Source: Chitinophaga pinensis (lineage in GTDB: Bacteria; Bacteroidota; Bacteroidia; UKL13-3). From it: DNA of 64,000 nt. The stretch lies in the NCBI GenBank assembly GCA_945860865.1, contig CAMARW010000004.1:62001-126000 (forward strand). Direction: 5' to 3'. The notes beneath the pieces were generated by a model. That model was not told the origin of the DNA, made no database searches, and saw nothing but the letters and a program-made list of their open reading frames with translations. The position numbers and the translations under genes are program-made. Shown piece after piece: positions 33,887 through 34,365 of this stretch. The stretch's first letter is position 1. Each line of letters starts with the position of its first letter.

Positions 33887-33950
33887 GGGGGATTAGCTCA
33901 GCTGGCTAGAGCGTCCCGCAGGTATGCGGGAAGGTCAGTCGGTTCGAATT
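33887..33950 (+). pseudogene. Broken tRNA-Ala-like copy (5' two-thirds only)
   Basis: The first 27 bases (acceptor 5' strand and D-arm) are identical to the intact tRNA-Ala at 33984. The anticodon arm TCCCGC-AGGTAT-GCGGGA folds but leaves a 6-base (or 8-base) loop rather than 7. It continues AGGTC-AGTCGGTTCGAAT into the T-loop and then runs into unrelated AT-rich sequence (TTAATATTTAG) where the T-stem 3' strand and acceptor 3' strand should be. It therefore cannot fold as a tRNA. Confidence 0.7.
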
Positions 33951-33983
33951 TAATATTTAGTAAAACAAATTTTGTTTTTACAT

Positions 33984-34057
33984 GGGGGATTAGCTCAGCT
34001 GGCTAGAGCGCTTGCATGGCATGCAAGAGGTCATCGGTTCGACTCCGTTATCCTCCA
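33984..34057 (+). tRNA. tRNA-Ala (anticodon GGC)
   Basis: Acceptor GGGGGAT/ATCCTCC with the G3-U70 wobble that identifies alanine tRNAs, D-arm GCTC/GAGC, anticodon arm CTTGC-ATGGCAT-GCAAG with anticodon GGC (reads GCC and GCU), variable loop AGGTC, T-arm ATCGG-TTCGACT-CCGTT with a single T-T mismatch in the second pair, discriminator A at 34057. CCA is not encoded. A strong terminator follows at once. Confidence 0.92.
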
Positions 34058-34058
34058 C

Positions 34059-34092
34059 AAAAGTCGTAGAACAAAATTCTACGACTTTTTTT
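34059..34092 (+). terminator. Terminator of tRNA-Ala
   Basis: AAAAGTCGTAGAA, loop CAAAA, TTCTACGACTTTT then TTT: a perfect 13-bp stem with a T-run, one base after the tRNA. It ends exactly where the GIY-YIG ATG begins. Confidence 0.8.
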
Positions 34093-34332
34093 ATGTTTAA
34101 AGTTTACATTTTATATTCTGTAATAAAGGATAAGTATTATGTTGGTCAAACAGAGGATTTGGAGAGGCGTTTGGCCGTTCATAATATGAGAAATAATATG
34201 GGAACTTCCGATTGGGAGTTGAAGTATTACGAATCTTTTGAAACAAGATCAGAGGCGATGAAAAGAGAGTCTGAGATCAAAAGCAAGAAGCGGAGATCTT
34301 ATTTAGAGGGCCTGATAAAAAATCAAATTTAA
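34093..34332 (+). CDS. Small GIY-YIG endonuclease-domain protein
   Basis: 79 residues: FKVYILYSVIKDKYYVGQTE (2-21) holds the GIY-YIG pair as VYILYS...YYVGQT, followed by LERRLAVHN (about 23-31), an Arg in the usual catalytic region, and a C-terminal EIKSKKRRSYLEGLI. It is the UPF0213/YhbQ-like single-domain type with no DNA-binding or homing module. An open frame runs back to 34012, but that part is tRNA-Ala and terminator sequence, so ATG 34093 is the start. The gene sits between an intact tRNA and a tRNA fragment that begins 4 bases after its stop. With a terminator in front of it, its promoter is unclear. Confidence 0.82.
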   Translation: MFKVYILYSVIKDKYYVGQTEDLERRLAVHNMRNNMGTSDWELKYYESFETRSEAMKRESEIKSKKRRSYLEGLIKNQI

Positions 34333-34336
34333 GGTT

Positions 34337-34365
34337 GCAGGAATTAGCTCAGCTGGCTGGCGCGC
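34337..34365 (+). pseudogene. tRNA fragment (acceptor 5' strand and D-arm)
   Basis: GCAGGAATTAGCTCAGCTGG (34337-34356) continuing CTGGCGCGC matches the first 27 bases of the tRNA-Ala copies with a few changes, then departs from any tRNA fold. It begins 4 bases after the GIY-YIG stop. The remaining sequence to 34519 contains a GC-rich patch (CCGGGGTTCTGCACCCAG) and nothing else that I can name. Confidence 0.6.

Follow-up and report, generated by a model that had tools for sequence, protein, structure and literature searches.

A GIY-YIG nuclease gene among tRNA copies with palindromic arms: a possible tRNA-resident element of Bacteroidota chromosomes

Why should a gene for a 79-amino-acid (aa) nuclease lie between an intact tRNA gene and a broken copy of the same tRNA? 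The question is raised by a 64,000-nucleotide stretch of a Chitinophaga pinensis contig, which is called the window below. The following features make up the locus.

33261-33572, plus strand: rplU, a syntenic anchor 5' of tRNA-Ala in the genus
33592-33855, plus strand: rpmA, a second syntenic anchor 5' of tRNA-Ala in the genus
33862-33885, plus strand: terminator-like hairpin behind rpmA, from the sequence
33887-33949, plus strand: piece 1, a defective tRNA-Ala copy of the 5' type, from base 1 to the T-loop
33914-33931, no strand: palindromic hairpin TCCCGCAGGTATGCGGGA replacing the anticodon arm of piece 1
33984-34058, plus strand: intact tRNA-Ala(GGC) (ARAGORN; Rfam, 59.7 bits), with its anticodon arm at 34011-34027
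34060-34092, plus strand: intrinsic terminator of tRNA-Ala, its T-run ending directly at the nuclease ATG
34093-34332, plus strand: single-domain GIY-YIG nuclease of 79 aa (PF01541, 56 bits; alignments; AF2 model, pLDDT 90.6)
34340-34372, plus strand: piece 3, a defective tRNA-Ala copy of the 3' type that lacks the anticodon arm

A preliminary description of this DNA had named five parts, which were confirmed: the intact tRNA-Ala(GGC), a defective copy on each side of it, a terminator, and the GIY-YIG gene of 79 aa. It placed the third tRNA piece 4 bases after the nuclease stop codon; the actual distance is 8 bases. It also held that the pieces diverge from the anticodon arm onward. The anticodon arm is indeed altered, but both pieces rejoin the tRNA afterwards. 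In piece 1, the 17-nt arm CTTGCATGGCATGCAAG is exchanged for the hairpin TCCCGCA-GGTA-TGCGGGA, downstream of which the sequence is again that of the tRNA (AGGTCAGTCGGTTCGA). In piece 3, the arm is missing, GCGCG is joined directly to CATCGGTT, and the tRNA sequence resumes; the same deletion is present in genome G015. ARAGORN detected no other tRNA in the window, and tRNA-Ala(GGC) was the sole Rfam tRNA in 33000-35500. A 24-base pattern of the tRNA 5' part (up to 3 mismatches) had exactly three sites in the 2.59-Mb genome, all at this locus, and thus the three tRNA pieces are not due to chance. The window's own genome (G000) also harbors a second GIY-YIG fragment, truncated to 50 aa (L157; G000:C2:131862-131987), with no tRNA adjoining it.

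The 79 aa consist wholly of the GIY-YIG domain, with no separate DNA-binding domain. The catalytic Tyr, Tyr, Arg and Glu of the superfamily are present; among 35 proteins, Y16, G18, R26, H30 and E59 were invariant and Y5 was found in at least 90%. In a profile search against solved structures, the UPF0213 proteins 1zg2 (6.5e-14) and 1ywl (2.4e-12) ranked above Slx1 (about 1e-7) and I-TevI (0.026). Foldseek with the AF2 model also gave 1zg2 first and Slx1 next, at weak E values of 0.005 to 0.06. Judged by these comparisons, the nuclease is of the UPF0213/Slx1 type, nearer to it than to I-TevI. The C-terminal zinc-binding domain of Slx1 proper was not found in the 79-aa protein. The dN/dS values were mostly 0.05-0.25 (range 0.03-0.55), tandem copies included, indicating that the nuclease is kept by purifying selection. 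A defense gene was set aside because PADLOC gave no match for the nuclease. Phage or plasmid cargo was also rejected: a scan with the window protein as the single query, a multi-clade alignment being too divergent, yielded no relatives in 50,697 phage and 72,556 plasmid records.

The preliminary description stated that small GIY-YIG open reading frames often lie behind tRNA genes in Bacteroidota. We searched 41 evenly drawn Bacteroidota genomes with PF01541, fetched the surroundings of the short matches listed, and counted a GIY gene as linked if a tRNA or tmRNA gene lay no more than 250 bp 5' or 130 bp 3' of it. Among the matches listed, 39 of 79 distinct single-domain GIY genes were linked, and this fraction rose to 39 of 54 when two clades with no linked member (20 and 13 tree rows) were excluded. 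All linked genes were on the strand of the RNA gene; in no case was the closest RNA gene on the other strand. Of the UvrC and long GIY control loci, 0 of 45 were linked to a tRNA. From about 45 tRNAs per genome, we estimate chance linkage at well below 1%. The preliminary description was right about this linkage. Unlinked genes belonged largely to the two separate clades, and several of the remainder were located at contig ends, where arrays also end. The search covered what PF01541 and tblastn detect, in genomes many of which are MAGs with contigs ending in arrays.

Outside Bacteroidota, single-domain GIY genes were linked in 4 of 9 cases in Verrucomicrobiota and in 0 of 9 in Firmicutes. A Kiritimatiellales MAG of 1.0 Mb (G106) contains at least seven such genes (L255, L260, L265, L270, L275, L279 and L282), some of them linked to tRNAs, a possible expansion outside Bacteroidota. 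GIY-YIG genes were also seen directly behind tmRNA (ssrA) at L135:1326-1935, where they are in tandem, and at L144:1294-1497; no displaced tmRNA fragment was seen in these two loci. Linkage to other structured RNAs was rejected, since no rRNA, RNase P or SRP gene was detected by Rfam beside the unlinked or contig-edge loci. A terminator-like hairpin was present between the tRNA and the nuclease ATG in 46 of 56 loci, compared with 17 expected, and the ATG often lies a few bases past the T-run. The T-run just ahead of the ATG suggests that the nuclease may be expressed by read-through from the tRNA.

We then asked which tRNAs host which nucleases. In a tree of 157 GIY domains, many forks of which are poorly resolved, 87 linked genes were scored for isotype. 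The tree required 33 isotype changes, against a shuffled mean of 62.6 and a minimum of 54 in 1000 shuffles. In the tRNA-Ala clade, the neighbors are rpmA, infB, lpxB, enoyl-CoA hydratase or others (names from our reading of the sequence), and a tRNA-Ala is near. Vertical descent could be a partial cause of this tracking. The preliminary description had the nuclease moving among tRNAs and leaving broken copies; its first half agrees with clades that follow tRNA identity across unrelated neighborhoods, but its second half is too simple, because arrays can lie 5' or 3' of the tRNA, and armed copies occur in some relatives at loci without a nuclease (see below).

The copies and the nuclease are arranged in two orders. 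In type A, the intact tRNA is followed by the nuclease and then by a 3' part of that tRNA. Type B begins with a 5' part of the tRNA, after which come the nuclease and the intact tRNA. Across the nuclease gene from the intact tRNA, 58 of 67 linked loci carried a fragment of their own tRNA, compared with 1 of 67 in the reversed-sequence control, and the own tRNA scored above 15 tRNAs with different isotypes at 59 of the 67 loci. Further fragments beside other GIY-YIG genes, which the preliminary description had suggested looking for as 5' halves, are common, but they are not only 5' halves. Type A loci carried an own-tRNA fragment in 50 of 58 cases, mostly the 3' part, and copies located 3' of the tRNA or the nuclease usually retain the 3' part; in type B loci and in 5' arrays, it is the 5' part that is displaced. 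Throughout Bacteroidota, the arrangement is found again at many other tRNA genes. Tandem units of tRNA copy, terminator and nuclease are repeated 2 to 8 times, and tandem arrays were found both 5' and 3' of the tRNA. At some loci, the C-terminus of the nuclease reads into the D-arm of the tRNA copy (L048, ending in KKIAQLVQGIPT and stop). Unit numbers differ between near relatives: 2 in G048 and 1 in G049 (92-94% identity), and 2 in G050 and at least 3 in G051 (98% identity).

The palindromic arms of most copies were absent from the preliminary description and are a new part of the tRNA-nuclease arrangement. A perfect palindrome replaced or filled an arm in 40 of 59 displaced copies. In type A, the sites were the anticodon arm (20), the T arm (9) and the variable region (5); in type B, they were the D-loop (4) and the anticodon arm (2), and some 5' arrays have palindromes in the D-loop and the anticodon arm together. 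The usual stems are TCCCG..CGGGA, TCCG..CGGA and CCCCG..CGGGG, with varying centers. The pattern AGAGCRTCCCGN{2,14}CGGGA had 27 matches in 64 family genomes, nearly all of them tRNA copies, and none when read backwards. The palindromes differ among the tRNAs of one genome, and most are present in one or a few copies in each genome.

Two other readings were considered first. The succession of intact tRNA, unit, displaced 3' fragment and unit resembles tandem integration at a tRNA gene, and tRNA and tmRNA genes are classic integrase targets. A tyrosine recombinase acting in trans might insert mini-elements at tRNA att sites, the displaced 3' ends being att sites and the palindromes core sites. 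However, the displaced part is the 5' one in type B loci and in 5' arrays, and the units are too small to hold an integrase. The palindromes also vary by tRNA and species, a variation incompatible with a sequence-specific recombinase. Together with the lack of protein relatives in the phage and plasmid records, this makes integrase-type accretion very improbable.

The second reading starts from the shape of the copies. Outside the exchanged arm, they are near-perfect tRNA sequence; hairpin stems are kept, while loop letters differ between species; the affected arms are the D, anticodon and T arms; and 6 of 8 copies folded more stably than their shuffles (z -2.7 to -4.1). Such copies could be functional host features that the nuclease maintains or amplifies; for example, they could act as decoys, drawing off tRNA-cutting enzymes or tRNA-targeting integrases, or they could regulate the transcription of tRNA. 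Phage T6 offers a precedent, in which a GIY-YIG enzyme amplifies a tRNA to beat a tRNA-cutting defense (PMC13096335). Yet the copies are sporadic among congeners, most are without one acceptor strand, and the nuclease has no PADLOC match, so that we regard host function as rather improbable.

We propose instead a small element that resides at a tRNA gene, namely a free-standing GIY-YIG nuclease like SegB whose breaks would spread and duplicate the locus, and we give this reading even chances. It is proposed because the geometry is the same as that of phage SegB. The nuclease, parked past the terminator of the intact tRNA and probably expressed by read-through, would break DNA in its own tRNA gene or close to it. 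Recombination between tRNAs would carry the nuclease gene to a gene of the same isoacceptor elsewhere, and would also duplicate segments of the locus in tandem, presumably as a result of the breaks. One tRNA copy would be held intact by selection, and surplus copies would persist in defective form with one or more arms palindromic. Slx1-type enzymes recognize branched DNA, and by analogy the hairpin arms are perhaps substrates or scars of a structure-specific nuclease. A bolder version, which we hold only tentatively and with some doubt, is a class of chromosomal elements, new to the literature, that are homed in tRNA genes, in which an isoacceptor-specific, hairpin-recognizing nuclease acts on tRNA-shaped DNA, builds palindrome-armed arrays and chooses its target by structure and not by sequence.

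The rpmA-tRNA-Ala locus, which is syntenic across the genus, has both occupied and empty alleles. It is clean in the stretch compared in G003, G007, G008, G011, G014 and G002 (the sequence of G002 stops at the tRNA). Copies together with the nuclease are present in the window and in G015, and G004 and G006 are cut off by contig ends. Armed copies without a visible nuclease gene at the locus were found in G001, G005, G009, G018 and G012 (in the last up to the contig end). In G017, by our reading of the sequence, about five nuclease codons remain, which looks like deletion of the nuclease and not like a never-occupied site. Self-protection by an altered intact tRNA was not seen at this locus, where the anticodon arm is the same with and without the nuclease gene. 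The preliminary description had named strains with the tRNA fragments but no nuclease as the observation that would speak against it, and the armed copies at these same-genus loci are such cases. Accordingly, duplication and arming may not depend on the nuclease, or may have required it only at an earlier time or from elsewhere in trans.

Further armed copies with no adjoining GIY gene lie at tRNA-Lys in L373 (G002:C70) and at tRNA-His in L376 (G005:C12); no GIY relative of the window protein was found in G002. Palindrome-armed tandem arrays with no GIY gene seen beside them were observed at tRNA-Thr (L208:765-1277), tRNA-Leu(tag) (L209:877-1631) and tRNA-Leu(taa) (L212:4724-5200).

Several arrays were found in G062. 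Here, one tRNA-Asn has eleven 80-bp units on its 5' side and eight 410-bp nuclease units on its 3' side. Each 80-bp unit (L058:4731-6000; G062:C1:174000-175000) is a tRNA 5' part with CCCGATAGCTATCGGG in the D-loop. The tRNA-Leu and tRNA-Thr of G062 have further arrays, with no nuclease seen adjacent. The CCCGATAGCTATCGGG palindrome has 52 copies in G062, many of which lie in ordinary intergenic sequence; G000 has none, and there TCCCGAC..GTCGGGA was not above the control. At L213, L218, L222 and L225 of G062, single dispersed intergenic CCCGATAGCTATCGGG copies are flanked by short CTCAAATCT-like repeats and appear REP-like. A high-copy REP family was rejected as a general description of the palindromes, counts being low except in G062.

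Armed arrays with no nuclease beside them and the intergenic copies of G062 are what would be expected if armed copies arose independently of the nuclease, by replication slippage, template switching at hairpins or REP-like spread of palindromes, the GIY gene being a passenger or a selfish gene in a safe, expressed tRNA haven. Simple tandem duplication would also explain 5'-type and 3'-type copies alike. Against this origin, which we judge unlikely, stand the position of the nuclease exactly between the tRNA and the displaced copy in the 58 loci, the tracking of tRNA identity by its clades, and palindromes that differ within a genome and are mostly few.

If a tRNA-resident nuclease with break-repair spread is correct, homing-endonuclease behavior at tRNA genes is not confined to phages but extends to chromosomes in a major phylum of bacteria, and the abundance of small "excinuclease-like" GIY-YIG genes in Bacteroidota is accounted for. 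The arrays of palindrome-armed tRNA copies, which tRNA annotators do not report, come to light, and a nuclease living harmlessly inside essential genes offers a testable system. We found no description of this GIY-YIG and palindrome-tRNA arrangement for bacterial chromosomes in a literature search that lay mostly outside subscription journals, so that an earlier description is possible; a 2006 phylogenomic survey of GIY-YIG proteins does not mention it.

Several known systems share parts of this arrangement. As in REP/RAYT systems, a small nuclease gene lies near short GC-rich palindromes, which in some cases (G062) are dispersed. However, the nuclease is GIY-YIG and not an HUH/Y1 transposase, and the palindromes lie within tRNA arms and are mostly undispersed; genome-wide palindromes with a Y1 transposase were not found, and dispersal was clear in G062 only. 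The rtT of E. coli tyrT is a likeness, with tandem repeats behind the tRNA that carry pieces of the tRNA 3' end; it is not known to have a GIY-YIG gene or arms exchanged for palindromes. Like UPF0213 (1zg2, 1ywl), the nuclease is a single GIY-YIG domain, and UPF0213 and Slx1 are its best matches in sequence and fold. Slx1 has an additional zinc-binding domain and requires Slx4, and known homing endonucleases have a separate DNA-binding domain, which the 79-aa protein lacks.

In phage T4, the SegB gene sits between tRNA genes (PMC2988022). In phage T6, SegB drives tandem amplification of tRNA-Tyr-segB by way of DNA breaks that recombine, and the 5' end of the tRNA shares microhomology with the 3' end of segB (PMC13096335). 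Here, too, a GIY-YIG gene resides beside tRNA genes and outside introns, as those of free-standing homing endonucleases do, tRNA and nuclease form tandem units, many isotypes are hosted, and the nuclease end can lie inside the D-arm of the tRNA copy (L048), similar to the T6 microhomology. SegB differs in being a phage protein that amplifies a full-length, functional tRNA, whereas here the gene is chromosomal and the copies are defective and palindrome-armed. Furthermore, the protein is a 79-aa catalytic domain alone, UPF0213/Slx1-like, with clades tied to one isotype; neither an extra DNA-binding region nor membership in a phage endonuclease family was found, with no matches in PHROGs or among phages. 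By analogy of arrangement, SegB of phages T4 and T6 is nevertheless the closest functional parallel.
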